A program made the position numbers and the translations under genes. Below the pieces are notes generated by a model. The model worked only from the letters and a program-made list of their open reading frames with translations. It made no database searches and had not been told where the DNA came from. Positions 21,246-39,176 of a DNA stretch of 46,905 bases are shown here, piece by piece. Position 1 is the stretch's first letter; each line of letters starts with the position of its first letter. Origin of the DNA: SAR202 cluster bacterium bin87 (lineage in GTDB: Bacteria; Chloroflexota; Dehalococcoidia; Lucifugimonadales; UBA3495); NCBI GenBank assembly GCA_002238825.1, contig MPNC01000018.1, positions 1-46,905 of the forward strand, written 5' to 3'.

Positions 21246-21282
21246 GGAGCACAGGCGAAGAAACCCGTGTGCCCGCTCCTCA
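21246..21282 (+). terminator. Terminator candidate after the unknown gene
   Basis: AGGAGC...GCTCCT with inner ACA-GG/CC-TGT pairs forms an imperfect hairpin, followed by CACTGTCTTTC. Just before it is a short GCGCGC-GAGT-GCGCGC stem (21224-21239). Together they probably end transcription of the 20112-21221 gene. Confidence 0.4.
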
Positions 21283-21566
21283 CTGTCTTTCACGCGTCCT
21301 TTTTCTTTATCGTGGCTGTGCTCAATGAATTTCTCCTTGTCGGCATTCGGCTGATTTGGGTGTGTTCGTTGACCTTGCGGAATAAACCAGCTGTGGCGTC
21401 GAGGGGCCTCATGCCGTCGCATGCCTTGGCCCGCTGCTCGATAGGCCGTCCGGTTTGCCTTTCTCTCAGTCCGGTCGGAGGTCAGATTGCCTTCTCGCCG
21501 GCCGATTGGTACATTGCCGTTGACGGTGCGGGTCCCTTACGAGAATTTCTTTTGGAGGCGGGCGTC

Positions 21567-22553
21567 ATGGCAGATGTAGTTATTGGACGAATGGAGTGGG
21601 TGGACCTCCGGTCGGTGTGGCCTCATGAGGAACGGAATTTCACGCCATGGCTGCTGGAGAATTTGGACCTGCTGAGCGGGGCCCTCGGAATCGAACTGCA
21701 CAGTCCCTCCAAAGAGGTGTCGCTTCGCGGGGCGGGTAGGGCCGACATCGTGGCGTACGTGAGGTCGGATGCTGGCGACGAGAAAGCGGTGATCGAAAAC
21801 CAGTTTGGGATGGGTGACGAAGAGCATTTCACCAGATTGCTGGGGTACGCGGAAGCGGCGGACGCCAGTGTGTTGGTTTGGGTGGCCAGCGAGTTCAGCC
21901 GGCGGCACGAAAAGCTGGTGAAGTGGTTCAATCGGCGAGCCGGCGCCGGCTTGGCGGTTTACTTGGTGGAAGCCAGTGCTTGGCGAATTGGCGATGTCGT
22001 TGGCCTGTTCTTGGTCGTGCGGGAAGGACCGCAACCGGTACTGACCAGGCCAAGCTTGGTGACCAGGACCCTTGCCACCAGCCTGGGCGATTTCTACCGG
22101 CCACTGGTGGCCCGGTTGAGGGCGTCTGGCGTCCCAACAGTAGGTCGAGGCGGATACCGAGGCCGTTGGCGGTCGTTTCCGACTGGCCAGGCAAATGTCC
22201 TGTACGCCCTGGGCGTGGATCGGGGCAGGATGTGGATTTTCTGTGGTTTCCTCGGCTTGGAAACGGCGAGGGCTTACCCAAGCCCGGAGGACAGGCGAGA
22301 CGAGATAAACGCTGCGCTGGCAGAACTGGATGCCGATGCCGAGGTGGAATGGGATCAGGGAGGTCGGGATCATTGGGTTTCCATAAGCCGAGACCTGTTC
22401 GGCGCTGGGGACGCGTATGATGAGGAGAGCCGGGATTGGATGTTCGACAACTTCCTTGGGTTCAGGGGGACAATACAACCGTTTCTGGACGAGTTGTTCT
22501 CCGACGACCGTTTGGATGAGCAAACCGACCGCGAGGGACTGTCTGCGGAGTAG
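21567..22553 (+). CDS. DUF4268-like PD-(D/E)XK family nuclease
   Basis: A 328-residue protein. Residues ~10-115 form a predicted restriction-endonuclease-like core: WVDLRSVWPHEERNFTPWLL, then GRADIVAY (Asp60) and AVIENQFGMGDEEHFTRLLGY, where the catalytic pair is E77-N-Q79 instead of E-x-K, followed by ASVLVWVASEF. This order (WPHE..FTPWL, AD(I/L), VIENQ, (T)DxxHLxxLLxYA) is typical of the uncharacterised ENQ nuclease-like proteins with a C-terminal DUF4268 domain, and the C-terminal half here (ISRDLFGAGDAYDEESRDWM) fits that length. GGAGG sits 8 nt before the ATG; the longer upstream frame is rejected. Such proteins are often solitary in mobile or defence regions. DNA cleavage has to be inferred. 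Confidence 0.75.
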   Translation: MADVVIGRMEWVDLRSVWPHEERNFTPWLLENLDLLSGALGIELHSPSKEVSLRGAGRADIVAYVRSDAGDEKAVIENQFGMGDEEHFTRLLGYAEAADASVLVWVASEFSRRHEKLVKWFNRRAGAGLAVYLVEASAWRIGDVVGLFLVVREGPQPVLTRPSLVTRTLATSLGDFYRPLVARLRASGVPTVGRGGYRGRWRSFPTGQANVLYALGVDRGRMWIFCGFLGLETARAYPSPEDRRDEINAALAELDADAEVEWDQGGRDHWVSISRDLFGAGDAYDEESRDWMFDNFLGFRGTIQPFLDELFSDDRLDEQTDREGLSAE

Positions 22554-22721
22554 ACATCGCGAACGTCATTGTCGAAGTGTCAGACAACACGAGGTTGGGG
22601 GCCCGTGAGCGCTGGTCACTCAGTCCGCCGGTGGCGGCCGGCGTCGCCGCCATGATGAGGCAGTTCGCGTGGCGCTGACGCGTGCGGCGCTTCGGGTTGA
22701 TGGCCGTCGCTGCTTGGTCAA

Positions 22722-22890
22722 TAGCGTGTGGGTCGGTCTAGTTTCGGCCGGAAACGGCCCTCGGGCGCGTTTGCGTGGCCTCGAGGTGGAATTCTGTACC
22801 GATGCGAAAACGGCGCCCTGCGGCGCCGTTTGGGGTGAGAGCGGGGCTGGTGACGGAACCGGCCGGTGGGCTGCGGTCGCCGGTGCCGTT
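22722..22890 (+). repeat. Dispersed structured repeat, copy B
   Basis: Full-length copy 3' of the DUF4268-like gene. It has the ideal 5' hairpin GGCCG-GAAA-CGGCC (22746-22759). The long-range stem pairs GGCGC-GTTT with AAAC-G-GCGCC. Its central hairpin is perfect, AAACGGCGCC-CTGC-GGCGCCGTTT (22808-22831). The 3' stem is ACCGGC/GCCGGT. It directly abuts a transposase fragment. Confidence 0.8.
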
Positions 22891-23220
22891 GGTCCGGGAC
22901 AGGCAGGTCTGCAACGACCAGCACTACGAGAAGCCCGAGGGCCGGTGGCTGTGGATAGTGTGCCTCCTGCCCTGCCGCTCGGCGAAGTGGAAGGCCGAGT
23001 ACAAGAAACGTCCGGTGATCAAGCGGCACTTCAGCAGCGCCAAGTACAGCTGGCTGCTGGATACCCATCGTCACCTGAACATCGGGAAGGTGTCGCTGAA
23101 CGTGGCGATGTCGACGCTGGCCCACTTGGCTACGGCCCGCGCCCATCTCAAAGCCGACGACTACCCCCGCATGAGGCACATGAGGATACGACTGCCCCAA
23201 GCGCAGGGCGCAAGCCGAAC
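22884..23220 (+). mobile_element. DDE transposase C-terminal fragment
   Basis: The frame reads RWLWIVCLLPCRSAKWKAEYKKRPVIKRHFSS..., with KYSWLLDTHRH, MSTLAHLATARAHLKADDY and MRHMRIRLPQ. 'SxxWKxxYxKRxxIERxFSxxKxxxxL..H' and the following 'MS.LA..A.A' are the ending of DDE transposases of the IS1182/IS1634/IS4 sort, after the last catalytic Glu region. The N-terminal two-thirds are missing and no terminal inverted repeats are seen. Exact IS family uncertain. Nothing further is supportable between 23220 and the operon promoter. Confidence 0.6.
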
Positions 23221-23509
23221 TGGACAAATTTCGCCGCCGCCGGCCTGCCGCGACCTCGGTTGCGGCTGTTGTATCCGGTGGCGTGAAGTGGCGTAACGCG
23301 TAGCCAGTTGGACATCAAGATCACGTATCCGACCCCGAAGAGGGTCAAACCAAGCTGGAGGTGGAGCAGAAGGTCTATCTTGGCATCGTGGCGGTGCTGG
23401 TGCTTCATCAACTCAACACCGCGAAGCGAGTGGCATAATGTCAGCAAATTTCAAGCCGCCAAAAGATGACACAGATGGACGAGCGAGGCGGCATGTGTCG
23501 GAGAGCAAA

Positions 23510-23518
23510 TGCTAAAAT
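23510..23518 (+). promoter_or_regulatory. Extended -10 promoter of the four-gene operon
   Basis: TGCTAAAAT matches the extended -10 form TGnTAAAAT, and would place the start of transcription ~25 nt before the GTG of the first gene. No good -35 is present, consistent with an extended -10 promoter. The operon has no visible operator. Confidence 0.4.
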
Positions 23519-23550
23519 CGCATGGAAATTACCGGCTGTGAAGGTGCAAA

Positions 23551-24420
23551 GTGACCGAGAATACAGAGACTGTGGTTTATCGTTCCCTCAGTTTGGGCGC
23601 AGGTGTACAGAGTTCGGTTTTGGCTCTGCTGTTGAGCAGGTCCGACCCGCAACTGCTCGAGTTGGGGTATCCCCAGCCGGATGTTGCTGTGTTTGCCGAC
23701 ACCGGATGGGAACCGCATTACGTTTACGCACACTTGGACTGGCTTGAGTCCCAACTGAACTACCCGCTGGTGAGGGTTTCCGCAGGTGATTTGCGCTCCA
23801 ATATTAAACTCGGGCGAACTGTTTCAGGGCATCAGTTCATTGATGTCCCGTTCTTCTTGGTAGACGAGAACGGCAAGAAAGGCATGCTGCGCCGCCAATG
23901 CACAAATCACTACAAGATCAAACCCATCTATCGGAGCATCAGGAAGTTGGCTGGAGGGCGTCCGGGCCGACCATTTCCTGCCGATACCCACGTCGAGATG
24001 TGGTTGGGAATCTCTCTCGATGAGGTTGGGCGGATGAAGCCCAGCAGGGAGACTTGGGTCGAACATCGCTGGCCCTTGGTTGACTTGGGCATGTCGCGCA
24101 GTGATTGCTTGGATTGGTTTTCGTCTGAGTACCCGGGTCGCTACCTGCCTCGCTCCGCCTGTGTGATATGTCCCTATCGTTCCGACGAACACTGGCTTGA
24201 GCTGAAGCATTCTGAACCTAGCAGTTTTGAAGAGGCGGTTAGATTCGACCGTTGGTTGCGGCATAATAAGTCCAACCCCGTTCGACAGATTCTGAACGGC
24301 CGTCCCTATCTTCATTCAGCGCGTCGGCCCCTTGCGAGTGTCATTGCAGCACGGGAATCTGAAGGGCTGGAAAACATCAACCATTTCAACGAAGAGTGCG
24401 AGGGCCTTTGTGGTATCTGA
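23551..24420 (+). CDS. PP-loop ATPase of the PAPS reductase-like family
   Basis: A 289-residue enzyme of the CysH/PAPS-reductase-like PP-loop superfamily, which adenylates a substrate before thiolation or amidation, or transfers sulfur. The PP-loop is SLGAGVQSS (residues 13-21), followed by VAVFADTGWEP. Other family signs are RRQCTNHYKIKP (~114-125), WLGISLDE (~151-158), RWPLVDLGMSRSDCLDW, the cysteine pair SACVICPYRS (C204, C207) and the C-terminus ECEGLCGI (C283, C287), which could ligate a metal or Fe-S cluster. It differs from true CysH and from DndC (~500 residues). The GTG start has AAGGTG 5 nt upstream. The stop overlaps the helicase start by 11 nt. Inferred role: nucleic-acid or nucleotide modification linked to the helicase-GHKL-nuclease genes that follow. 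Confidence 0.8.
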   Translation: MTENTETVVYRSLSLGAGVQSSVLALLLSRSDPQLLELGYPQPDVAVFADTGWEPHYVYAHLDWLESQLNYPLVRVSAGDLRSNIKLGRTVSGHQFIDVPFFLVDENGKKGMLRRQCTNHYKIKPIYRSIRKLAGGRPGRPFPADTHVEMWLGISLDEVGRMKPSRETWVEHRWPLVDLGMSRSDCLDWFSSEYPGRYLPRSACVICPYRSDEHWLELKHSEPSSFEEAVRFDRWLRHNKSNPVRQILNGRPYLHSARRPLASVIAARESEGLENINHFNEECEGLCGI

Positions 24421-25669
24421 GCAGAACCCGAGCGTAATCGTTCCTAGATTTGCTCTGCACGCCTATCAACGCCAGGTGCTCCGGGACATCCTTGGAACTT
24501 TGGCCTTGCCCGAGCGCCGCGTGGTCGCTCATTTGCCTACTGGGGCTGGGAAAACGCGTATAGCTGCCCATGCTGCGTGTCGGATTTTGAACGACAGCGA
24601 CACCGGTCGCTCTCTTGTCATCTGGCTGGCGTCAACCGAGGAATTGTGCGAGCAAGCTGCTGAGACGTTGGCTGCTGCTTGGGCAAGTCTTGGTCAAAGG
24701 GAGATTGCCGTACACAGGTGTTGGGGCGCGACTCGTTTGGATTCGGCCCGACTGGACGCTGGTTTCCTCATTACTGGGTTGGCCAAGTTGCGCTCCGTCG
24801 CGAGTCAAGACCTTACCCTCTTGCCTCAACTGGCTGGTCGCACCTCTGGCGTCATATTTGATGAGGCACACCAGGCGGTTGCGCCGACCTATTCATTTCT
24901 GATTGAACAACTGTGCAGCGTGAGGCCACCGCTGCTCGGTCTCACTGCTACGCCGGGTCGGACGGCGAATCTTTCCGGTGCTGATTATGATCTCGCTGAG
25001 ATGTTCAATCGCCATAAGGTTTCTATAGACGCCCAGGGCTATGACAGCCCCGTTACGTATTTGATCCAGAATAGGTACCTCGCCAATCCGCATTTCATAC
25101 CTGTAGCGTTTTCTTCGCAGATTCCTATTTCTGATCCGCCCTCCGGTGCAGACTATAGTCTCGGTGATTTGGATAGATTGGGTCGCGACCAGCAACGTAT
25201 TTCGACGATAATCGGCCTCGCCAAAGATGCCGTTCAACGACATCAAAGAACGATTGTGTTTTGTCCCTCCGTCGGCAACGCTGTGACCTGCCATAGTCAT
25301 TTGGTAGCGGATGGGATCAGATCTTACGTCGTTACCGGTGAGACGCCTGCTGATGACCGCAGAGTTGCGATTGAAGTTTTCAAAAGTGATGATGCCGAGC
25401 ACATGGTCATGCTCAACTTTGGCGTTCTCACTGCGGGTTTTGATGCTCCGCGGACCCGTTGCGTCATAATAGCCCGTCCTACGACCTCTCTAGTGCTTTA
25501 CTCTCAGATGGTAGGCAGGGCCTTGCGGGGGCCCCGAGCTGGCGGGAATGCAACTGCTGAGGTCTACACCGTGGCAGACACGAATTTGCCTGGTTTCGGC
25601 TCTGTAGCCGATGCCTTCACGAATTGGGAGGAATTATGGTCGGACATGCGGATGTCCTCGGCGACGTAG
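24410..25669 (+). CDS. Superfamily II DEAH-box helicase
   Basis: A 419-residue ATP-dependent nucleic-acid helicase or translocase. It has motif I HLPTGAGKT (residues 41-49), motif II DEAH (151-154), motif III TATPGR (179-184), a second RecA fold with IVFCPS and GFDAPRT, and motif VI QMVGRALRG (366-374). It is compact, with no extra nuclease or DUF1998 domain, and closest in style to the ComFA/RecG-like or type I/III restriction-associated helicases. The start is a GTG at 24410 with GAGGG 5 nt upstream, overlapping the PP-loop gene by 11 nt. Its end overlaps the GHKL gene by 34 nt. Probably unwinds or moves along DNA for the effector nuclease. Confidence 0.85.
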   Translation: MVSEQNPSVIVPRFALHAYQRQVLRDILGTLALPERRVVAHLPTGAGKTRIAAHAACRILNDSDTGRSLVIWLASTEELCEQAAETLAAAWASLGQREIAVHRCWGATRLDSARLDAGFLITGLAKLRSVASQDLTLLPQLAGRTSGVIFDEAHQAVAPTYSFLIEQLCSVRPPLLGLTATPGRTANLSGADYDLAEMFNRHKVSIDAQGYDSPVTYLIQNRYLANPHFIPVAFSSQIPISDPPSGADYSLGDLDRLGRDQQRISTIIGLAKDAVQRHQRTIVFCPSVGNAVTCHSHLVADGIRSYVVTGETPADDRRVAIEVFKSDDAEHMVMLNFGVLTAGFDAPRTRCVIIARPTTSLVLYSQMVGRALRGPRAGGNATAEVYTVADTNLPGFGSVADAFTNWEELWSDMRMSSAT

Positions 25670-27504
25670 ATCGCAGTCTGTTCCCGAGCAGCTTCACAAT
25701 CCGCGCTTTGAGGGATAGTCGCTATCACAATTCGGCGTATGCAATAGCCGAATTGATCGACAATGCCGTTGAGGCTGGTGCTCCCCACATTGAGCTGCTC
25801 TGCATGGAAGAGCCAACTCCCGGGCAAGCGCGGACACGGCGCCGTGTCTCGGAGATTGCTGTCCTTGACAACGGCCCGGGGATGGACGTGAAGACTCTAT
25901 TGGAAGCTCTCAAGTTTGGGGGAGGAACTCGCCACGATTCTGTCAGGGGGATTGGGAAATACGGTATGGGGCTACCCACTTCGTCCATGTCCCAGTGCAA
26001 GAAGGTCGATGTTTGGACTTGGCAGGACGGGCCAAATTCGGTCTGGCACTCCAGTATTGACGCTGATGCCATTGAGCGAGGCGATCATCTTGTCCCTCTT
26101 CCTGACCAAGAGACTCCCCTCCCTGACGTTTGGCGGCGCGCCGGTAGCGACACGATAATCCAGGGGCGCTCCGGGACTCTCGTTAGATGGAGCAAATTGG
26201 ACAAAATCCAATGGAAAACCAGTCGCGGAATAATTGACAACACATCCCGTGAAGTTGGGCGGATCCACCGCCACTACATTGATGCCGGCATACACGAGAT
26301 AAAGGCCGCCGCCTTTCTCAAAATCTCACCTGACGCTCTTGAGCAGGTAACGACCTTTGTTGCCAACGACCCACTGTACTTGATGGCTCGTACATCCGTC
26401 CCGGAGCCCCCATGGGATGAACAACCGATGTTCCAACCATGGGGCGAGCCGCGGTACTACACCTCGACTGGTGAGGGTGGCAAGGAGGTTACGATTGAGG
26501 TCAAGTATTCCATCGTGAGGCCGGAGGCTCTGCGAACAGATGGCCTCTCGCAAAATCCCGGTAACACCGAACGCGGTAGGCATGCGCGTCACAACATTGG
26601 CGTCTCGGTCGTGCGCGAGGACAGGGAGATAGTTCTCGAAGATGCCTTCCTTAGGGAAGGTGGTAGCGCTGAAAACCCCCAAAACCGATGGTGGGGCTGT
26701 GAGGTTCTCTTTTGGCGTGATTCTGATGAGCTTTTTGGGGTCGACCACAACAAACAGATGGCAGCGAATTTCACCCAGGCTGCCAAAACTTTGGCTCGTG
26801 ATGACCGTCCGAATCAGGTCGTGTTGGACGAGCTCGGAATAGATGACGATCTCATTTACCAGATCGTGGGGGACATCCGCGACCAGACTCGTGCGATGAT
26901 GGGCCAGATTCGCCAGATGTTTGCGCAGAAGCGGACCCCGCCTCCCAGACCTGGTCCCGGTCCCAGCACTCCGGAGCATACCGCTGTGAAAACGGCAACT
27001 GAAGCAGACCGTGAGGCCGTGTCATCTGGGGTAGAACCCCCTACCAAGACCGACATTGATCGGGATCAAATCCCTCCTGAGCAAAGGGAGGAGGGTTTGA
27101 CCGAGCAATTTGTTGAGCTAGGCCAGGCACGCGAGGATGCTCAGAAGTTGGCTAGGCATCTGGTTGAGGAAGACCTTTCATATCAGTTCAATTCTTCCCA
27201 GCTCGATGGGTCGCTCATGTTCAATGTGCGCTCTAACCAGGCGGTCCTGCATATCAATCTCAACACTGACCATCCGATCTATGACCTTCTCAGCCACATC
27301 GAAGGAGACTTGGATTCCAGTTTGGATCCAGACGACCCCGCTTTCCAGGCCAGCGTCGCGATTCGTCTTTTGCTTTCCTCTTGGGCCCGCATGGAAGACC
27401 AAACCGAAATTCGGGAAGATCGGATCCGCATTCAGAACATCGCCATCAATTGGGGGCGCCACGTTGAAAAGGTGATCACTCACCTTAGGGAGCGCAGCGA
27501 GTGA
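25636..27504 (+). CDS. GHKL (MORC/HSP90/MutL-type) ATPase
   Basis: A 622-residue protein with an N-terminal GHKL ATP-binding fold: N-box AIAELIDNAVEAGA (E39, N43), VLDNGPGM (D78, G80, G82), the ATP lid GIGKYGMGL (~105-113) and GTLVRW (G180-T181). After this comes a transducer-like region (~200-410), a Pro-rich linker (RTPPPRPGPGPSTPEH, ~430) and an acidic/helical C-terminal domain (~480-620). Such proteins close like a clamp on ATP. MORC- and MutL-like versions have been described in restriction and anti-phage operons. The ATG follows GGGAGG by 4 nt and lies inside the helicase 3' end. The stop overlaps the next GTG as GTGA. It is likely the ATP-gated clamp of a multi-protein DNA-targeting complex. 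Confidence 0.85.
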   Translation: MVGHADVLGDVDRSLFPSSFTIRALRDSRYHNSAYAIAELIDNAVEAGAPHIELLCMEEPTPGQARTRRRVSEIAVLDNGPGMDVKTLLEALKFGGGTRHDSVRGIGKYGMGLPTSSMSQCKKVDVWTWQDGPNSVWHSSIDADAIERGDHLVPLPDQETPLPDVWRRAGSDTIIQGRSGTLVRWSKLDKIQWKTSRGIIDNTSREVGRIHRHYIDAGIHEIKAAAFLKISPDALEQVTTFVANDPLYLMARTSVPEPPWDEQPMFQPWGEPRYYTSTGEGGKEVTIEVKYSIVRPEALRTDGLSQNPGNTERGRHARHNIGVSVVREDREIVLEDAFLREGGSAENPQNRWWGCEVLFWRDSDELFGVDHNKQMAANFTQAAKTLARDDRPNQVVLDELGIDDDLIYQIVGDIRDQTRAMMGQIRQMFAQKRTPPPRPGPGPSTPEHTAVKTATEADREAVSSGVEPPTKTDIDRDQIPPEQREEGLTEQFVELGQAREDAQKLARHLVEEDLSYQFNSSQLDGSLMFNVRSNQAVLHINLNTDHPIYDLLSHIEGDLDSSLDPDDPAFQASVAIRLLLSSWARMEDQTEIREDRIRIQNIAINWGRHVEKVITHLRERSE

Positions 27505-28352
27505 ATCCGTGCGAATCACATGGGGATGTTTTGCTGAAGTCGGCCGCTGGCGCTGGTCGTGTGTTGATCGTGGCTCCCTACATCAAGGTCGATGTGCTCA
27601 AAAGAGTATTGGGCGTCGTCAGCCCCGATGCGTCGATCACTTGTGTGACCAAATGGACCCCCCACGATCTCGCATCAGGCGTATCAGACATCCAATGTCG
27701 TGATGCTGTGATAAGCCATGGTGGTTCGTTCAAGCTCCATTCGTCGCTCCATGCCAAGTACTACCGCTTCGATGACATCGTCCTCGTTGGCTCCGCCAAC
27801 TTGTCATCCGCCGCGATGGGCTGGGCCCGATTCTCGAATGTGGAGATCTTGTGTACTCCGGCGGTTGATTTTGGTGCCTCTTCCTTTGAACGATGGGTGC
27901 TCCAGAATGCGCGGGAAATAAGCGACCACGAGTTTCTCCTCTGGGAATCGATCCTGAAGACTGCGGTAAGTGGCTTCGAACACGTAATTGCTCAGCCATT
28001 TTTCATTGACGACTGGAGGCCGGCTACGAGGGATCCTCGCCATCTAGAGGTTGCTTACTGCGGCAGTGCCGACCAGATTGCATCATTCGATGAGCAGAGC
28101 GCAGTGATTCGAGATTTACAGGCCATGCGAATCCCGGAAAGCATGACTATCGAAGAGCTTCGAGTATGGGCCTCCGCGTGTCTTCTCTCCTCGCCGTTTG
28201 TGACGGATGTGATTACTTTGGGTGGTGACCATGAGGACGAAGCTTCCGCCGTATTGGCCGAGAGATACGGGCTCTCGATGGCTGAAGCCCGGCGGAGTAG
28301 ACAGACGGCGGTGAACTGGCTGATATATCTAGGATTATCGGGTTCTGATTAG
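27501..28352 (+). CDS. Phospholipase D-like (HKD) nuclease
   Basis: A 283-residue protein with one HKD motif, HAKYYRFDD (H84, K86, D91), followed by VGSANLSSAAMGWARFSN, the GSxN part of the active site. A single motif implies a homodimer, as in bacterial Nuc-type nucleases. The N-terminal part (VLIVAPYIKVDVLKRVL) is the usual first strand-helix of the fold. The C-terminal ~110 residues (IEELRVWASACLLSSP, EARRSRQTAVNWLIYLGL) form a helical domain that may bind the partners. Translation is coupled to the GHKL gene by a GTGA overlap. It is the last gene of the operon and the best candidate for its effector. Confidence 0.85.
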   Translation: MNPCESHGDVLLKSAAGAGRVLIVAPYIKVDVLKRVLGVVSPDASITCVTKWTPHDLASGVSDIQCRDAVISHGGSFKLHSSLHAKYYRFDDIVLVGSANLSSAAMGWARFSNVEILCTPAVDFGASSFERWVLQNAREISDHEFLLWESILKTAVSGFEHVIAQPFFIDDWRPATRDPRHLEVAYCGSADQIASFDEQSAVIRDLQAMRIPESMTIEELRVWASACLLSSPFVTDVITLGGDHEDEASAVLAERYGLSMAEARRSRQTAVNWLIYLGLSGSD

Positions 28353-29621: not shown

Positions 29622-32600
29622 ATGTCGAGCAAGGTTTTCAGGATGTGGCCGACGTTGGCGCTGGCGTTGTTGGTGGCGGCGGTCTGGCATTGGGGCGTTC
29701 CGGCGGAACCGGCTGCGGCGCAGACTGTGCCCGCATCGACACCAGCGAGTCGGCTCTCCGTCAATTGGCAGTGGACTGGAGGTACAGTCAGACTGTCGGC
29801 GAGCGGTCTTACGCCGGACACCAGAGCGTTTGCCTATGTTCTATGGTCGGCCGATTCGGCTCCTTCTTGCCGCGACATGTCGGTCGTTGCCAATCAGGTT
29901 GGCGACGACCTGGTGGATAGTGACGGCGACGTGGCCTTCACGTTGATGGTGGAGCCGCCTCGTTTCCAAGCTGGCGACCACAATTATCTCTGCGTCATTG
30001 ACGGGTTGCAGCGTGGCATTGACCTGGCTCCTCTCCGGCTGCGGGTAGTGGAGCGGCCGCCTTATTACCGCATGCGTCTTGACGTGACGAGCATAGTGCA
30101 GGCGCCTGACGACGACTACGTAGGGGGCGCCATGCCTCGGCATTTCGCCGTCGTTGACGGCCGTCATTGGGACAACTGGAGGTTGCCGCAGCGTCGTACC
30201 TTCGGGATTGCGGGGAGGCTGGGGCACATGTCGAACTTGGGGCAGACTGCCACCGCCGATCCAGTGCTGTTTCCCGGCGTCGGCGGTGGAGTGGAAGTGG
30301 CCAACTCGTTCACCACCGGCGGAGTGGCTTCCGACCGTTTCGTGATCAGCAGCGTCGTTGTCGACTTCGGCGCCAACGCGCACAACGCCAGAGTCGGCAT
30401 CTACTCTAATGACGTGGCTGCGGGTGGACAGCCGGGTGTTCGGATTGGCAGCGACCTGCATTGGTCCGGCGTCAGCAAGAGCGGGGAGGTCACCTTTGCC
30501 CGTGGCGACCTTTTCTTGGCCGGTGACACTACGTATTGGCTGGTTTTCAAGTCGAACGTCGCGCAAGGCTCCGAGGAGCCCATAGTGAGGACGGTCGACA
30601 ACGGCAGTGAGGATGACGGCGGGCTTGCGAGTTGGTCCATTGGGGACTCCTACAAGTATCGCAACGGGAGTACGGGCGATTGGAGTACGTTTGATGGCAG
30701 CAGTCGCGTTCTGCGGTTTCGCGTCAACGTTGCCGAGGCTACTCCCAAGGGTGTCGACGTGATGCCGACCGCGTTGTCGGTGTCCGAGGGTTCCTCGAGC
30801 ACCTACAGGGTGAGGCTGAATGCACCCCCGGCCAGTGCGGTTACGGTCACGGTGAGCAAGGGGGGCGGCGGGGACACGGACCTGACCGTGGACACAGACC
30901 CAAACACCGCGGACGACCAGAACACGCTGACCTTCACCACGGACAACTGGGAGACGTGGCAGAACGTGAGGGTGAAGGCCGCGCAGGACGACACGGACAG
31001 TTCGCACGGTGAAGCGACCTTCACCCACCGGGCAACGAGCTCGGACCCCGGTTACAACATCACTGATATTGCCAGCGTCACAGCCACCGAGGCCGATGAC
31101 GACGACGGTGCCGCGCCCACGTGCGCCTCGGCGACGGTGGTCGGCGATGAGCTGACGATAACGTGCGACGAGGCCATGAAGATCAATTCCAGGCCTGCCG
31201 AGAGTGCTTTTGCAGTGACTGTTGATGGTGTGAAGCGTGATGTGAGCGGTTATACCATTTCGGGCTCTGTTGTGATTCTGGATCTGGTCCGCCCTGTTGC
31301 GCCAGCCCAAACTGTGATGGTGGCTTACATCAAACCTGATGTGGGCGATGTTCTTGAGGACTGGGCGGGCCACGCCCTTCCGTCGTTTACGGAACCCATT
31401 GAGGCGACAAATGACTCGGATTATACGCCGCCGACCGTGAGCTCGGCGACGGTGAATGAAAATACGCTTGTCGTCGCCTTCAACGAAGAGTTGGCGGCGG
31501 CGGGCGGTTTGGACAACGGCGCCTTCGTGGTGAAGAAGACGACCGAGACCGGGGAGATTACCGTCGGCCTGAGCGGGTCGCCGGTCATCAACGGCAGGAC
31601 GGTGACTCTGACCCTGGCCAGCCCGGTGGTCTCAACCGATACCGATGTGGAGGTGAGCTACACCAAGCCGGACACTGGTTCCAACAACAAGCTGAAAGAC
31701 GTCGCCAACAATGAGGTGGGCAACTTCTCGCAAGCGGTGAAGATTGGTCGGTTGCATGACGGTCCTTTGGTGTCCACCTACGGCCAGTGGCATCGCTGCC
31801 AGGATCGCTTGGTGGGCGGTTCCGGGATCCGGTTGGGATGCAGTTGGGAGGAGCCCCCCGCTGGTGGTGGCAGCCAGGATGAGGTTTATCTGGAACCCGT
31901 GGAGCGCACTGCTGCGCCGGTGCAGGTGCCTGGCGACACGATGCAGCTGCGCATATTTCTGAATGACGCTGACCTGGGCGTTCGCAAGGCTGCGGAGCGT
32001 TACGTGGTCTTCTGGGGACCGGTGGACCTTTGGCTGCTGGGAGCAGGCAGCGGTATTGAACCCCAGGATTTCGTGATACAGGGAGAGCATCTGGCTGGAA
32101 TTCGCAGCCGCACGGTGGTCCAGGACGATCTGGTGAACGGGGCGTTCACCTTGGATCTGGAGCGCAGCTCCGCCAACTACCGGGGCGACACCTTTGTGGC
32201 TTTGGTTCCGTGCAACGACGACTACTTGGAGGGAAAGTTCGGCGGTGATGAATTCAACCGCGCTCAGCGAGCGTTTGGGGACTGTACTGAGCGTTCGGCT
32301 GCTGGCCTGCCTCCCCTGAATGAAGGTGATTCCGATTCGACTCCGAAGGGCGTTCAGGAGGCTTGGTCGCAGCACGACCCGCTCAGCGGCTTGGGGCTTT
32401 CCTGTAGCGTGACGCTCAGTGGTGAAGGGAGCCGCACCATTCGTTGCAGGAACGATCTGGTTAAGTCCGTGACCTGGGATGAGTACAAACACTGCATGGA
32501 CTTGCTTAGTTCGATTACCGAGGGCGGTTCCATCAAGTGCGGGATGGGACACCAGAGAAAGCCGTACGGTGCCTCTGCAACTACCAATTGGGGTTCTACG

Positions 32601-35600
32601 CGTTACAACGCGGCGATGGCCTTCTATGGATTTGTCATCGACTGGCAGCGGGGATATTCCGGCGGCCAGGGGCGGCCGGGTTGCGACGTCAACCTGCTGC
32701 CGTACCGCATCGTCGAGGACAGGTACGTTGGATTTCCAGATTTGGGCACCGGAAAGTGGCTGACCGGCGAGGTCGGCGGCGCCAGCGACGAGGATTGCAT
32801 TGCCGATCCGGACGAGGACGAGGTGACCGTCGGCTTCTACACCCCTGAGTCTGATGAGAGTTGGTCCGATGCACAGAAGGACTGGCATGACACGCATCCG
32901 GTGCACTTCGCGGTGTATGTCTCCGGCATGGCGTCGGAGTACGCCGGCGCCGTTGATGTCGGTGGCGTTGCTGATTGGAGGCGTGTTCCACTGGGAACTT
33001 GGGATGTGGATGAGTCAGTGCCCTACGGCAGGGTTCGGGGGTTGACCAGGCTTGGCCTGTGGTATCCGCACTCCGGAGCTGGCGTCAGTGAGGTTTCCGG
33101 CGTCAGGCTGCCTTCGATGGAGTCCATGAACGGTGGCAAGGGCCTGACCGTGCCGCGGGACTTTGCTGGTCTGGACGGGGTGGTGCGCCTTTACGTGGTG
33201 CCCTGTCTCCCGACGTACTCGGAGAGGGGCATTACACTGGGCGTCTGTGAGGACCTGCCGGCCAGGACGGGCCCGGTTTCTCCCGTCCTCTTCGGTTTGG
33301 AAGCTCGCCAGGTCGGCCCCTTCGGGTTCGACCGGAATACATCCATCATTGCGTACTCCATCGGCGTGACGGTGATCTTCCGCTCCGGTCCGGACGGCGA
33401 GGGGGTGTCGCGTTCCGTTTCGCATCCTCCCACGGTCAGGGAGCCTGCGGGCCATGTTTGCGGGCTTGTCTCGGTTGCGCCCGATGGCGGCAGCTCCTAT
33501 TGGCCCGAGGTCACAGTGCAGGGTGGGGCATGTGATCGTAACGACTTGAACGTCGTTCCGGTGACAATATCCAACGCCGGTGGCGCCGGCGATGACCGTC
33601 TGGTGGTTTACGCCACCGGCGGTCGCACCGAGGGTCTCGACAAGGTGCGCATGAGACGCGCCGGCGTTGATGCAGGCGACCGTGAATTTGGCCGTCTGGG
33701 CCTGCGTGAGCGAGAGTTCGTCTTGACCGGATCCGGTTCGGAGACTCTTCACGTCAGTGCCGACCTGGCCAATCGGAGCGGCGAAGTCTGGCTGGTTGCC
33801 TACAGTTGCGGCGGAACATCCCGTTCCGCGAGATGTCCTTCGGTCAACAGGGACCGCGTTCCCGTCGTCTATGACATCGCGGTTCCTTCCGCTTTCGTGA
33901 TCGTGGTCAAGTTCACGGCGGCCGCCGGTCTGAGGCACACTGAGCTTGCTCCGGTATGTCAGGGCGCCGACTGCGACATCGAAGTTGGCAAGGATGTTCC
34001 CGTGTTGCGTGAGGCGGTTCCTGATGCTCCTGATGGTACTTGCGGCGCAAGTTCCTATCCGTCGGCGCCTTCCGGCGGCTTGATCTACTGGCCTGACCGT
34101 TTGGTTTCCGGCGGCGCGTGCGCTCCCGATGGCCTCGAGGACGTGGAGGTGGCGTTCCACAACGCCACCGGCGTGGGCGGTCAGCGCCTCGTGGTGTATG
34201 CCACCGGCGGTCGTGGTCCTGGATTGGAAAGGGTCCAAGTCAACCGCGCCGGCGAACCTGCCGGCCGCGCCGGCCTGCGCCGGGTGGAATTCACGTTGGG
34301 GGCTGGTGAGACCAGCCGTGTTCTGGTGAGCCCGGACTTGGCGGACGACGATGGTCGGGTTCTGCTCCTTGCGTACCATTGTTCAGAGGGTTCTGGCGGT
34401 TGTCCGGCGGTGACGTCAGAAACGGACGCGGTAACCTACGCGGTGGACCGCCGTCCGCTGTTCCAGGTTTTGGTTCAGTACGACGACGAGCTGTTGTCGC
34501 CTTCCGGGTTGGCAATCTGTCGGGGCGACAGTTGCTCAGAGATCTACGAGTTGGAGCGATTTGAGAGGCCGCCTGGCCAGGATTGCTCGGCTTCGGCGTC
34601 TTACTCCGGTGGTGAGCTTTACTGGCCGGACCGCGTAGTGGCTGGTGGCGCCTGCGACCGCCGTGATTTGGACGACGTCACGGTCACGTTCAGTGCGCCT
34701 TCGTCGTCTTCCGAAGAACGCTTGTTGGTGTACGTCACAGGCGGGCGTTCGCCCGGTCTGGAGACAGTGAATGTCCGCAGGGAAGAGCCAGGGACTCCCG
34801 GTGTAGCGGTTGGGCGTTTTGACGTTTCTATTCCTTTCCCTGAGGATGTTGACGTAAACGGTTCCGGTGTTCGCGCCAACTTGGCTGCTGTGACTGGAGT
34901 CTTGGACGGAAAGGATTGGGTCCAGGATGGGTTGACTGCTGTCGAGAATCGGATTCTCGACGCGATGCGGCAGCTGGCTGGTCGTTATGAAGGTGCTGAG
35001 CGGGTCGCCGGGATGTCCTTCTTGGATCATGTTGACGACACTGACTATATTACCGTTATGGCCTTGGTTAAGGCTGCGGAGAAGGGCGTGGCTGATGACA
35101 TCGTTGAACATTCGGTTTTCGATGGAGACATTGACGACGATGAACGTTTATTGGTGATCGGTGCGTCCCAGTACTCCGACGGCGGAGTCGCCGCGGTCAC
35201 TGGTCGTCTCGATGAAGGAGAGTACGATGTCGAGATGGAAGAATCCTCCACTGCTGATACTCCGAGCTTGGTGGTCTGGGTTGCCCGTGATCAGAAGAGC
35301 GTCGGGGCGGTTCCTAATGCTGCCGATTTGGTGAAGGCTTCTGTGGAGTCCATGGAAGAAATGATGGGGCGTCCATTCCCAATCAGCCATGTGGTGATGT
35401 TCTTGGACTCTGGGATGTTCGCGCGTGGGAGCAGTTCTCATGGTTTCAACTACGGAGGCGTTGTTTTTGCTGTCCGTCCTGATCTCGAGCATCCTGCTCG
35501 GACCATTATTCATGAGGTGGCGCACTACTACTGGTACGGTGCTCGGATCTGGATTGACGAGGGAATGGCCGACACTGCCATTGCTGTGTTTGGGGCGAGG

Positions 35601-38108
35601 CCGAGCTTGGACGTTCCGATGGATCGGTTGGAGCGCAGCGAGGAAGAGTGTCCTCATTATGATAACCTCAGCGAACTGGATCCTGTTGCCGATGATCTGC
35701 CGAGAGTTGACGAGCTTTGCCCGTACTATCTGGGACAGCAGTTGTTCCTGGATTTGAGGGAGACCCTTGGTGTCGCCGACTTTCGCGCTGGCGTCCGTCG
35801 TCTTTACGACACCATATTAGCGAAGGAGGCTCAGGGGGTCCGATGGGGTTATTGGGCCAATGTAGATGACCTGAGGGAAGCTTTCTCCGGCAATGAAGTT
35901 GCTCAAGAGGTCATTGACCGTCACTGGTTCCCGGCAATATCTGGCTCGGTGGTCAGTGATTCCCCCTTCTTGGGCCGTTTGGGTTTGCGGCAGGAAACGT
36001 TGACGATTCCTGCTGACGGTGCGGCTACGGTCAGCGTAAGCCCTGACTTGGCGCGGTTGGACGGTCACGTCTGGTTGCTTGCCTACCGCTGCGACTCGTC
36101 GTACGGCGACAGTGGCTGTCCCGTACTGGGTACGCCTGTCCGTAACGGCTATGACCTTCCCAAAGGTCCTGACTTCGCCGTGCGCGTCAAGTACACCAAA
36201 GAGTCTGGCTTGACGCCTGCGGATCTTCAGGAGGTCTGTCGTGGGCAGCAGTGCGACATCGCGCATCCTTGGCTACGCCGTGCGGAGCCTTCAGTCGACG
36301 AATGCTCCGTTCAGTTGGGAGCGCACTGGGATTTCTGGCCCGACCGGGTGGTCCGCGGAGGTGGTTGCCACTTCCGTGGCCTTCACTACGGCTCCGTCGA
36401 TTTCCGTGCCGAAGGCGCAGAGAAGTTCGTGGTGTACACCACGGGCGGCGTCAAGCCTGGTCTTGACCTGGTGCGGGTTTACGGCGTGCTCGGGACAGAT
36501 GACAACACGGATGGGGAACAGTTGGGGCGCAGTGGGTTGAGAGAGACGCGAGTTGATCTCGCGCCCGGCGGAGAGGAGCAGGTGTGGGTGCGTTCCGACA
36601 TGGCCGATGACGACGGCAACGTGTGGTTGTTCGTCTACCGGTGCTTGACGGCCTACGGGGACGCGGGCTGTCCCTTGGTCGGTCGCGACGCAATACGGCC
36701 ATCTTATGACGTGCCCATCCGGCCGGCTTTCGTGGTCCGGGTCGGGTTCCTCGAAGCTGCGGACGCCAGCCGCTCCAGCCTGACGGTGGACTGCCCCCGT
36801 GGCGCGGGAACGTGCCAGCTCACGGCGACCTTCCGCACTGCTGACGGAGAGACTTTGCCTGGCACGGTGGAGTTCCGCGTGGACAACGGTGCTCTGGGCG
36901 CGACTGGCTCGACGGCACAAACCTCGACCAAGCGGAATGACGGAGGGCACCAGTTCAAGGAAACTCTGATCCTGCCGCCGGCTGGAAGCGTGGTCAACAT
37001 TGAGGCGGAACTCTTGGGTGACGGCGTAATCCTACTCGGACAGGCGGGAGTGGCCGGAACCCTCGACCGGCTGTCAGTGCGCGTGATGCGGTGCTCCGGC
37101 GAAGTGGCATCGTGTCATACCGAAGCTGCGGAAGAGGCCGAGGGCCTGTTGCCCGGCGAATGGTTCGTGCTGCGTGCGTCGGGCCACGACTCCGCCGGAA
37201 ACACGGTTTTCAGCACCGGCAGCGTTGCCCAGGCCATCTGCGCCGCCGGGCCTTCTGGCCCTTGGCCTACGTTCCGGCTCCGGTCAAACCACCTGAAGTC
37301 GTACAGTTACGGTGCGCCGCAGCCCGATGATCGCGGCCATGTCGGCTGCGCTATCCGAGTTGCGGACGACGCGCCGGTGGGCAGGCACAACATCGCCGTC
37401 TCCTACGGCGCGATGACCGTTCCGACTCAGGTCGCAGTAATCGTCGATAGGTCGAAACTCGGCTTCATTGGCCTGACGGGGCCTTCCCGCCTGGAGTCGG
37501 GGGAAGAAGGCGAATACACCGCGATTGGTTACACGATGGACGGCATTCCTGCGGCCTTTGACGGTGGCTGCCTGAAGTTGCGGGTGACCGGCCCGCTGGA
37601 GTCGAACGACGGCGGCTCGTCGGACGATCAATGTCTGACCGAGGGGTTGTCCCTCTCCGGAGAGAAGTTCACCGTCACGGCTAGTGACGATCTTCTCTAC
37701 AACACCGATGCTTCGGTGGGCGTAGAGTACGGCGGACGGAAAAGGGTCATGCACGTTCTGGTAGTGCCAGCCGAAGATGAAGCCGCTCCCTCGCCAGTTG
37801 CTCCGTCGTCGTCGCACATCACGGATTTGACCATTACGCCGGAAGGCTCTCAGTTGAGGGTCAGCTGGACGGCAAGTCCGACGGCTGACTTCGAGAGCCT
37901 GCGGGCGCAGGTCTGGCTGGTGATCGGCGGAGAGGACGTGTTCCTGCCCGGGTGCATGGGTGGCGAGCCCCATGACGTGTCGACTTACGAGGTCTTCTGC
38001 CTGCTGAGCTACGGCCAGTCGGGAGACGTTTACCACGCGGCGGTCGGCTTCCTTCGCCATGACGGCACTGCCGTGCCGGTTGAAACTGCCCAGTGGGTCC
38101 GGCCCTGA
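29622..38108 (+). CDS. Giant secreted multidomain protein with inserted zincin metalloprotease
   Basis: A 2828-residue exported protein. The signal peptide is 1-34 (ending PAAAQ). Then come a choice-of-anchor-R-like beta domain (~192-370; LGHMSNLGQTATAD, ANSFTTGG, VGIYSND), a Calx-beta-like repeat (~374-490; ALSVSEGSSSTYRVRLN), two SwmB-like domains (~496-600 and 600-705; VAFNEELAAAGG, VEVSYTKPD), an unassigned region to ~1270, and four ~190-residue repeats starting near 1273, 1470, 1649 and 2225. Each repeat has a (I/Y)YWPDR-type strand, GGAC, (L/V)VVYATGGR..GL, (S)xDLADxxGxVWLLAYxC and a CxxxxC motif. Repeat 3 is interrupted at ~1735-2113 by a metalloprotease-like domain with HEVAH (1964-1968) and WIDEGMAD (E1980). 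Ig-like domains and a C-terminal FN3 (~2728-2828) follow. GGGAG lies 8 nt before the ATG. A strong terminator follows. No cell-wall anchor is visible. Confidence 0.85.
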   Translation: MSSKVFRMWPTLALALLVAAVWHWGVPAEPAAAQTVPASTPASRLSVNWQWTGGTVRLSASGLTPDTRAFAYVLWSADSAPSCRDMSVVANQVGDDLVDSDGDVAFTLMVEPPRFQAGDHNYLCVIDGLQRGIDLAPLRLRVVERPPYYRMRLDVTSIVQAPDDDYVGGAMPRHFAVVDGRHWDNWRLPQRRTFGIAGRLGHMSNLGQTATADPVLFPGVGGGVEVANSFTTGGVASDRFVISSVVVDFGANAHNARVGIYSNDVAAGGQPGVRIGSDLHWSGVSKSGEVTFARGDLFLAGDTTYWLVFKSNVAQGSEEPIVRTVDNGSEDDGGLASWSIGDSYKYRNGSTGDWSTFDGSSRVLRFRVNVAEATPKGVDVMPTALSVSEGSSSTYRVRLNAPPASAVTVTVSKGGGGDTDLTVDTDPNTADDQNTLTFTTDNWETWQNVRVKAAQDDTDSSHGEATFTHRATSSDPGYNITDIASVTATEADDDDGAAPTCASATVVGDELTITCDEAMKINSRPAESAFAVTVDGVKRDVSGYTISGSVVILDLVRPVAPAQTVMVAYIKPDVGDVLEDWAGHALPSFTEPIEATNDSDYTPPTVSSATVNENTLVVAFNEELAAAGGLDNGAFVVKKTTETGEITVGLSGSPVINGRTVTLTLASPVVSTDTDVEVSYTKPDTGSNNKLKDVANNEVGNFSQAVKIGRLHDGPLVSTYGQWHRCQDRLVGGSGIRLGCSWEEPPAGGGSQDEVYLEPVERTAAPVQVPGDTMQLRIFLNDADLGVRKAAERYVVFWGPVDLWLLGAGSGIEPQDFVIQGEHLAGIRSRTVVQDDLVNGAFTLDLERSSANYRGDTFVALVPCNDDYLEGKFGGDEFNRAQRAFGDCTERSAAGLPPLNEGDSDSTPKGVQEAWSQHDPLSGLGLSCSVTLSGEGSRTIRCRNDLVKSVTWDEYKHCMDLLSSITEGGSIKCGMGHQRKPYGASATTNWGSTRYNAAMAFYGFVIDWQRGYSGGQGRPGCDVNLLPYRIVEDRYVGFPDLGTGKWLTGEVGGASDEDCIADPDEDEVTVGFYTPESDESWSDAQKDWHDTHPVHFAVYVSGMASEYAGAVDVGGVADWRRVPLGTWDVDESVPYGRVRGLTRLGLWYPHSGAGVSEVSGVRLPSMESMNGGKGLTVPRDFAGLDGVVRLYVVPCLPTYSERGITLGVCEDLPARTGPVSPVLFGLEARQVGPFGFDRNTSIIAYSIGVTVIFRSGPDGEGVSRSVSHPPTVREPAGHVCGLVSVAPDGGSSYWPEVTVQGGACDRNDLNVVPVTISNAGGAGDDRLVVYATGGRTEGLDKVRMRRAGVDAGDREFGRLGLREREFVLTGSGSETLHVSADLANRSGEVWLVAYSCGGTSRSARCPSVNRDRVPVVYDIAVPSAFVIVVKFTAAAGLRHTELAPVCQGADCDIEVGKDVPVLREAVPDAPDGTCGASSYPSAPSGGLIYWPDRLVSGGACAPDGLEDVEVAFHNATGVGGQRLVVYATGGRGPGLERVQVNRAGEPAGRAGLRRVEFTLGAGETSRVLVSPDLADDDGRVLLLAYHCSEGSGGCPAVTSETDAVTYAVDRRPLFQVLVQYDDELLSPSGLAICRGDSCSEIYELERFERPPGQDCSASASYSGGELYWPDRVVAGGACDRRDLDDVTVTFSAPSSSSEERLLVYVTGGRSPGLETVNVRREEPGTPGVAVGRFDVSIPFPEDVDVNGSGVRANLAAVTGVLDGKDWVQDGLTAVENRILDAMRQLAGRYEGAERVAGMSFLDHVDDTDYITVMALVKAAEKGVADDIVEHSVFDGDIDDDERLLVIGASQYSDGGVAAVTGRLDEGEYDVEMEESSTADTPSLVVWVARDQKSVGAVPNAADLVKASVESMEEMMGRPFPISHVVMFLDSGMFARGSSSHGFNYGGVVFAVRPDLEHPARTIIHEVAHYYWYGARIWIDEGMADTAIAVFGARPSLDVPMDRLERSEEECPHYDNLSELDPVADDLPRVDELCPYYLGQQLFLDLRETLGVADFRAGVRRLYDTILAKEAQGVRWGYWANVDDLREAFSGNEVAQEVIDRHWFPAISGSVVSDSPFLGRLGLRQETLTIPADGAATVSVSPDLARLDGHVWLLAYRCDSSYGDSGCPVLGTPVRNGYDLPKGPDFAVRVKYTKESGLTPADLQEVCRGQQCDIAHPWLRRAEPSVDECSVQLGAHWDFWPDRVVRGGGCHFRGLHYGSVDFRAEGAEKFVVYTTGGVKPGLDLVRVYGVLGTDDNTDGEQLGRSGLRETRVDLAPGGEEQVWVRSDMADDDGNVWLFVYRCLTAYGDAGCPLVGRDAIRPSYDVPIRPAFVVRVGFLEAADASRSSLTVDCPRGAGTCQLTATFRTADGETLPGTVEFRVDNGALGATGSTAQTSTKRNDGGHQFKETLILPPAGSVVNIEAELLGDGVILLGQAGVAGTLDRLSVRVMRCSGEVASCHTEAAEEAEGLLPGEWFVLRASGHDSAGNTVFSTGSVAQAICAAGPSGPWPTFRLRSNHLKSYSYGAPQPDDRGHVGCAIRVADDAPVGRHNIAVSYGAMTVPTQVAVIVDRSKLGFIGLTGPSRLESGEEGEYTAIGYTMDGIPAAFDGGCLKLRVTGPLESNDGGSSDDQCLTEGLSLSGEKFTVTASDDLLYNTDASVGVEYGGRKRVMHVLVVPAEDEAAPSPVAPSSSHITDLTITPEGSQLRVSWTASPTADFESLRAQVWLVIGGEDVFLPGCMGGEPHDVSTYEVFCLLSYGQSGDVYHAAVGFLRHDGTAVPVETAQWVRP

Positions 38109-38318: not shown

Positions 38319-39176
38319 ATGATTACTGCTTTTCCCCCCGAAAATGCCAGCCGTTTTGTCATTTGGGGCGTCGTCGCCGTGCTGGCACTGGCGTTGGCCT
38401 TTGTGCCCGGTTCCGCCGGCGCTCAGACGCCCGGACCGGCGAAACCGGCGAATTTGACCGCGTACCCCGCCAACACGGAGGGTGAAATCATCCTGCACTG
38501 GGACGCCTCGAAGGGAGCAACGCATTACCGCGTCTGCCGCAGACCGGCGGACGGCTCCGGCAGATGGGGCTGCCTCGACAGCCCGGACAACAGCGCCCTG
38601 CTCACCCGCCTCCAGGTTGGCGCGGCGTACCACTTCGCCGTTGCCGCGCACGGCGAGTACCTGCATTCGTCCTGGGCTTGGACTGAAGCCGTGGTCGGGA
38701 TTCCGGAAGCCGCGCGTTGCCCTGTCACCGGGCTGCCGTTACCGGACGGATACCTGTCGGTAGGACAGACCACGACCCACGTGTCGGGGCGGACCTTCAC
38801 CCTCACCAGCATCACGCCAAAAGGGGGAATCACACAAGGCGAGTCCGATTTCCCGCCCTTGGCCGGCCGTCAGTACGTGGAAGTGTGCGGAAAGGTGACG
38901 GCGCCCGCCGGTGTGGAAAAGGACTTCGCACCGGGTAGCGACAACAACATGATCACCGACCGGGGCGTTGGTTTTCGGGTACCTGATGACCGCGTGACGG
39001 ACTGGTCGGAGGTAGGTGCCGTGCCGGAGGGCGAGACCCGCAGCGCGTGCGACGTGTGGGAAGTTCCCGCCGGTGCCGGAACCGTCTATTACGCGGTCAA
39101 CAACTGGCTGGAGCATCCGGGCGTTTATCGGGTTGAACTTTTTCCTGACGTGACCAACGTTTCGGCGAATGAGTAG
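38319..39176 (+). CDS. Secreted FN3-domain protein
   Basis: A 285-residue exported protein. The signal peptide spans ~1-36 (VIWGVVAVLALALAFVPGSAGAQ). One FN3 domain lies at ~40-128 (PANLTAYPANTEGEIILHWD, THYRVCRRPADGSG, YHFAVAAHG). A C-terminal domain at ~135-280 contains four cysteines (ARCPVTG, VEVCGKV, SACDVWEV) and a beta pattern (YYAVNNWLEHPGVYRVELF) that I do not recognise. GGAGGA precedes the ATG by 7 nt. It lies just after the giant surface protein but behind a terminator, so it is a separate transcript. The role is probably surface binding. Confidence 0.75.
   Translation: MITAFPPENASRFVIWGVVAVLALALAFVPGSAGAQTPGPAKPANLTAYPANTEGEIILHWDASKGATHYRVCRRPADGSGRWGCLDSPDNSALLTRLQVGAAYHFAVAAHGEYLHSSWAWTEAVVGIPEAARCPVTGLPLPDGYLSVGQTTTHVSGRTFTLTSITPKGGITQGESDFPPLAGRQYVEVCGKVTAPAGVEKDFAPGSDNNMITDRGVGFRVPDDRVTDWSEVGAVPEGETRSACDVWEVPAGAGTVYYAVNNWLEHPGVYRVELFPDVTNVSANE

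Follow-up and report, generated by a model that had tools for sequence, protein, structure and literature searches.

A putative M1-like gluzincin domain nested in a loop of one beta-domain repeat of a giant Chloroflexota protein

In the stretch of DNA analysed here (the window, 46,905 nucleotides, a whole contig of a 4.96 Mb genome, G000:C4), one open reading frame encodes a giant protein in which the third of four beta-domain repeats is interrupted by ~387 residues (~1729-2115) that contain an M1-like gluzincin domain. The best overall explanation, to which a probability of about 0.7 is given, is that an M1-like protease is nested in a loop of this repeat, that the host domain is intact and that the product is an exported, tethered zinc endopeptidase. 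The source is a marine Chloroflexota bacterium that probably lives with sponges.

Results

The giant protein and its interrupted repeat

The following features of the giant protein were delineated.

29622..38108, + strand: ORF of the giant, putatively secreted protein, 2828 aa (translation, domain scans)
residues 204-370, N-terminal third: choice-of-anchor R domain
residues ~495-690, N-terminal third: two SWM/Ig-like repeats
33438..33986 (residues ~1273-1455), + strand: host repeat R1, uninterrupted (repeat alignment/profile)
34026..34541 (residues ~1469-1640), + strand: host repeat R2, uninterrupted (repeat alignment/profile)
34563..34805 (residues ~1648-1728), + strand: N half of R3, last strand LETVNV (profile positions 4-81)
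34806..34865 (residues ~1729-1748), + strand: linker from host half to insert, without significant similarity to the repeats
34866..35939 (residues ~1749-2106), + strand: core of the M1-like gluzincin insert (homology, model)
35967..36260 (residues ~2116-2213), + strand: C half of R3 (profile positions 71-168)
36273..36821 (residues ~2222-2400), + strand: host repeat R4, uninterrupted (repeat alignment/profile)

The N terminus resembles a signal peptide, and the known N-terminal domains are followed by four copies (R1-R4) of a beta domain of ~170 aa, with the hallmarks YWPDxxVxGGAC, VVYxTGG, GRxGLR and VSxDLAxxxGxVWL. Scanning of the giant protein revealed neither a recognizable wall anchor nor a transmembrane segment after the signal; the sole later long hydrophobic stretch is modest and lies near residue 1413, within R1. 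From its sequence features, the protein would be exported to the cell surface, and its attachment there is a guess because no wall anchor is recognized. The original prediction had a protease displayed on a rigid stalk. Neither the stalk nor the display gained support: the protein has the signal-peptide-like N terminus and the Ig-like/SWM domains, but the scans gave no anchor. The stalk remains an attractive image, which may by analogy be compared with the tetrabrachion-STABLE pair of Staphylothermus marinus (PMC5744192), where a long surface protein likewise holds a protease in a set position. The likeness is one of analogy only, since STABLE is an archaeal, subtilisin-type protease that is a polypeptide of its own and binds to a coiled-coil stalk.

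A small fn3 protein is encoded immediately 3' of the giant ORF (38319-39176, + strand) and possibly belongs to the same surface system. Just upstream lies a defence-like gene cluster (21267-28352, + strand) with PDC-S11-like (21267), SspD-like (23551), helicase (24332), MzaB-like HATPase (25624) and PLD/DrmC-like (27501) members, the last three of which have a GC content of ~0.55, below that of their surroundings.

Stand-alone relatives of the insert

The insert matched independent proteins of other genomes from end to end, with E values down to 9e-33. These separate homologues are mostly 550-1400 aa long, and the longest frame among all family matches measures 1423 aa, the window's own frame of 2849 excepted. 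The family was present in 35 of the 98 related genomes (36 of 99 when the own genome is counted); at E <= 1e-10 the class set yielded it in 23 of 393 genomes and the phylum set in 20 of 301, and these sets overlap in part and include the own genome. Two paralogues are encoded elsewhere in that genome (L002, G000:C49, 606 aa; L007, G000:C32, 619 aa). Because several homologues (among them L019, L025 and L028) stop at the end of the domain, the C-terminal border of the insert is fixed independently.

Stand-alone members and insert share the whole domain, which consists of a region of helical W-x-D-G repeats followed by the catalytic core, together with the invariant residues, an invariant cysteine pair and, in place of GAMEN, a motif that lacks the glutamate (GFNYG in the insert, GTNxG as the family consensus). 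Unlike the insert, which lies within a larger ORF and has no signal peptide, lipobox or linker of its own, the stand-alone proteins carry a signal or lipobox, a Pro/Thr-rich linker, additional helical repeats and, in many cases, a beta domain at the C terminus. A simple pattern detected a lipobox in 20 of 48 scanned ORFs. It is thus common, not universal, and many family members appear lipoprotein-like, with proline/threonine-rich linkers too. None of the stand-alone members was seen within another domain, and a search of viral contigs with the insert found no relatives. The family is not recognized by Pfam or NCBIfam above cut-off.

Named carriers are Chloroflexota, Dehalococcoidia and SAR202 MAGs and two Acidimicrobiia MAGs; judged by their isolate codes, many of them seem to come from sponge metagenomes. 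The members in Acidimicrobiia (Actinomycetota; L053 and L058) could reflect horizontal transfer or a binning error. As a whole the exported M1-like gluzincin family is widespread in Chloroflexota (L002, L007 and relatives L009-L037, L047-L079 and L102-L120). Two open frames each contain two tandem protease domains (G005:C36:70450-73563, 1423 aa; G010:C1:570475-572847, 825 aa).

Predicted activity of the insert

The predicted catalytic features of the insert are as follows.

35442..35456 (residues 1941-1945), + strand: GFNYG, at the place of M1 GAMEN(WG), without glutamate
35511..35525 (residues 1964-1968), + strand: HEVAH, predicted zinc motif (H1964, E1965, H1968)
35559..35561, + strand: E1980 of WIDEG, predicted third zinc ligand, invariant
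35649..35651, + strand: C2010, invariant; possible disulphide partner of C2033
35718..35726, + strand: C2033 (invariant) and Y2035 in CPYYLG; Y2035 aligns with the tyrosine of M1 YxKG

HEVAH and the other catalytic residues are invariant across 27 aligned homologues, and over the whole domain the insert has the full family set H, E, H, W, E, G, C, C, Y. One zinc would be bound by H1964, H1968 and E1980, with E1965 as the general base and Y2035 as a helper. Since all expected catalytic residues are kept, an active zinc endopeptidase would be expected. Nesting would tether both its ends and keep it at a single point of a large structural protein, and its likely substrates would be extracellular proteins, either matrix or seawater peptides used as nutrients or envelope proteins.

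An enzyme that forms part of the chain of a structural protein is also ideally sited for self-processing. It could act during assembly as a maturation enzyme that cuts the giant protein or neighbouring envelope proteins, and not foreign ones; precursor cleavage is one of the two roles proposed for tetrabrachion-bound STABLE (PMC5744192). However, neither a cleavage site nor a partner is visible, and self-processing is not the general role of the family, because stand-alone relatives occur in many genomes in which the host repeat was not found. A role in maturation is therefore judged rather unlikely.

The insert might instead have kept its zinc site and lost cleavage, to serve as an inactive or binding domain. 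Its branch in the family tree is very long (1.61 changes per column), and an acidic DxDDGS stretch ahead of HExxH, present in many relatives, is lost. Against this, all five expected catalytic residues persist, as do the invariant cysteines and glycines, which makes such a loss of activity quite improbable.

Relation to the M1 peptidases

AlphaFold2, run with a 47-sequence alignment, modelled most of the insert with a pLDDT of 80-96. The best structural matches were M1 catalytic domains, with Z scores of about 20 for 216-232 residues at 2.5-3.0 A (for 6koy, Z 20.3, 221 residues and 2.9 A), and Foldseek also returned an M1 match (E 2e-5). In a comparison of the family profile with the PDB, M1 aminopeptidases ranked first. 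The alignment with ERAP1 (E 7e-6) paired HExxH, the glutamate of WxxEG and the tyrosine of YxKG, so that Y2035 corresponds to the tyrosine of ERAP1 YDKG. Scans with the single protein against Pfam, NCBIfam and PDB gave nothing above cut-off; M1 emerged only via the family profile or the model. The catalytic fold is thus common to the insert and the M1 aminopeptidases (PF01433; for example the two-domain M1 of Deinococcus radiodurans, 6A8Z/6KOY; ERAP1; PepN), as are HExxH, the downstream glutamate in WxxEG and the YxxG tyrosine. Unlike these enzymes, the insert is nested in another domain. Together with the stand-alone homologues, the confident M1-fold model bears out that one repeat contains a complete gluzincin-type catalytic domain.

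This resemblance, in structure and in profile, could mean that the insert belongs to the M1 aminopeptidases proper. Several differences make this distinctly unlikely. The spacing between HExxH and the glutamate is 11, versus 18 in the M1 motif HEXXH-x18-E. GAMENWG, which aligns with GFNYG in the insert and GTNxG in the family, is the place of the M1 aminopeptidase signature GAMENW, whose glutamate holds the substrate N terminus (PMC10343166), and this glutamate is replaced. In the model, helices (model residues 104-221) that correspond to the W-x-D-G repeats precede the catalytic strands and take the place of the N-terminal beta-sandwich domain of M1, which is absent. PF01433 scored 14.4 bits with the insert, against a cut-off of 27.7, and its best E value among the 27 homologues was 0.0017. 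Because the spacing, GAMEN and the N-terminal region differ and PF01433 remains below cut-off, the insert is called an M1-like gluzincin and not an M1 peptidase. It is probably an endopeptidase: with the GAMEN glutamate, the anchor for free N termini, absent, internal peptide bonds would be cut. The missing glutamate is the sole ground for this assignment.

The host domain in R3 and in other genomes

R3 is interrupted after ETVNVRRE and picks up again at GRLGLRQ. A host profile of 169 positions (A1) was built from copies 1, 2 and 4 only, with R3 left out. In a whole-genome search the N half of R3 matched positions 4-81 (E = 5e-21) and the C half positions 71-168 (E = 2e-26). The halves are complementary in the profile, and therefore the host domain is complete. 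This places the insert inside repeat 3, as the original prediction had it, and its ~380 residues came out at ~387. The motifs on which it drew were located as described (YWPDRVV 1667, VTGGRSPGL 1705, HEVAH 1964-1968 with E1965, WIDEGMAD 1977 and GRLGLRQ 2118), and the borders were refined to ~1749-2106 for the core and ~1648-1728 and ~2116-2213 for the halves. Short linkers connect the core to both halves.

The insertion site is a loop of variable length, of 7 to 15 residues in the other copies; in R4 it is also elongated (GVLGTDDNTDGEQ). R2 modelled alone is an all-beta domain (pLDDT 60), in which the break corresponds to the turn that links strands 69-72 and 78-81, where confidence is low. 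The AlphaFold2 model suggested by the original prediction was confident for the insert with its M1 catalytic fold. For the host flanks it was of low to moderate confidence, with strands on both sides of the insert and mixed results for the R3 halves. That the halves make up one domain is indicated by their complementarity in sequence more than by the model. A fold was not named for the host, as the best match in the PDB (Z 6.3) came from a weak model and was under the trusted level. Residues 1136-1200 (33027-33221), before R1, are possibly a very divergent fifth copy, with 3.5 bits only.

With four tandem copies and a weak host model, one could imagine that unequal recombination left the protease between two partial copies whose halves do not pair. 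Yet the halves join at profile positions 71-81 with no loss of host sequence, and the insert has no detectable duplicate of a host segment next to it. With the HMM, the N half could be aligned as far as profile position 99, a candidate duplication that was rejected; shuffles gave no signal. A direct repeat in the DNA at the insert borders was likewise discarded, being a match of 8 bases only, the same as in shuffled sequence. An origin by unequal recombination is accordingly considered improbable, and a clean insertion into the R3 loop is preferred.

The search for homologues without the insert yielded the host domain, uninterrupted, from two further species of this genus. It occurs there in exported proteins with Ig-like regions after the domain (G005:C109, G005:C2 and G006:C1). 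It is the same domain as R1-R4 (E to 7e-13 or better when the profile lacked the sequence concerned), but in single copy and without protease. The first repeat profile did not find the host domain in 393 genomes of the class, nor did the repeat profile find relatives among viral contigs and named genome contigs. The nested form has been seen in a single genome assembly, and no second nested case was found among about 740 genomes.

Composition and history of the insert

The GC content is 0.55 in the insert versus 0.62-0.66 on either side, with steps that coincide with the insert borders, and GC3 is 0.58 versus 0.65-0.75 in the rest of the gene. The codon-usage distance between insert and rest of the gene is 0.359 (sliding-window mean 0.249, sd 0.04), which exceeds that of almost every other stretch of equal length. 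Homologous domains elsewhere are often slightly GC-poorer than their surroundings, and the domain itself may thus account for some of the dip; GC3 was as low in none of 14. The GC step probably reflects different histories of host and insert. An assembly artefact, in which a foreign fragment was joined into the ORF, might account for this step and for the occurrence in one genome only, but is scarcely credible, as both joins are in frame and fall in one and the same loop of R3, all host residues are present and the insert family also occurs elsewhere in the same genome.

In the tree the insert groups with L010 and L011 (100/99), from another family and genus, and not with its own-genome paralogues. 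Because its branch is long, this place is not certain. YYLGQ and [RK]HW are found only in the insert, L010 and L011 in the alignment. The simplest account is that the structural domain existed first and later took up a protease domain whose donor was another lineage or an old paralogue; the catalytic domain of the separate, exported Chloroflexota gluzincins would have entered the variable loop between two beta strands of R3.

Discussion

Natural intradomain insertions form a broad known class, with 174,872 sequences and 202 insert superfamilies in one data set (PMC12328240), and the giant protein resembles them in that a domain is placed in a loop of a parent domain. What is new is the pair of insert and parent, neither of which is recognized by Pfam or NCBIfam. 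It is a clear natural case in which a loop of a ~170-residue beta domain has taken up an enzyme domain of ~360 residues. Controls are at hand in the three sister copies of this chain, which are uninterrupted, and in the copies of sister species, which lack the insert. An enzyme has been built into a structural protein with the chain unbroken.

Taken together, the data may be read, tentatively, as the domestication of a lipoprotein protease: a clean loop insertion that left the parent intact would have made it a functional internal part of a giant structural protein of the surface. The event would belong to one species of a sponge-associated Chloroflexota genus, and its product would be a fixed, doubly tethered cell-surface endopeptidase. 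Beyond this protein, the finding points to a family of exported M1-like proteases that is widespread among marine and sponge-associated members of the Chloroflexota, also occurs in two Acidimicrobiia MAGs and could shape the handling of extracellular proteins in these bacteria.
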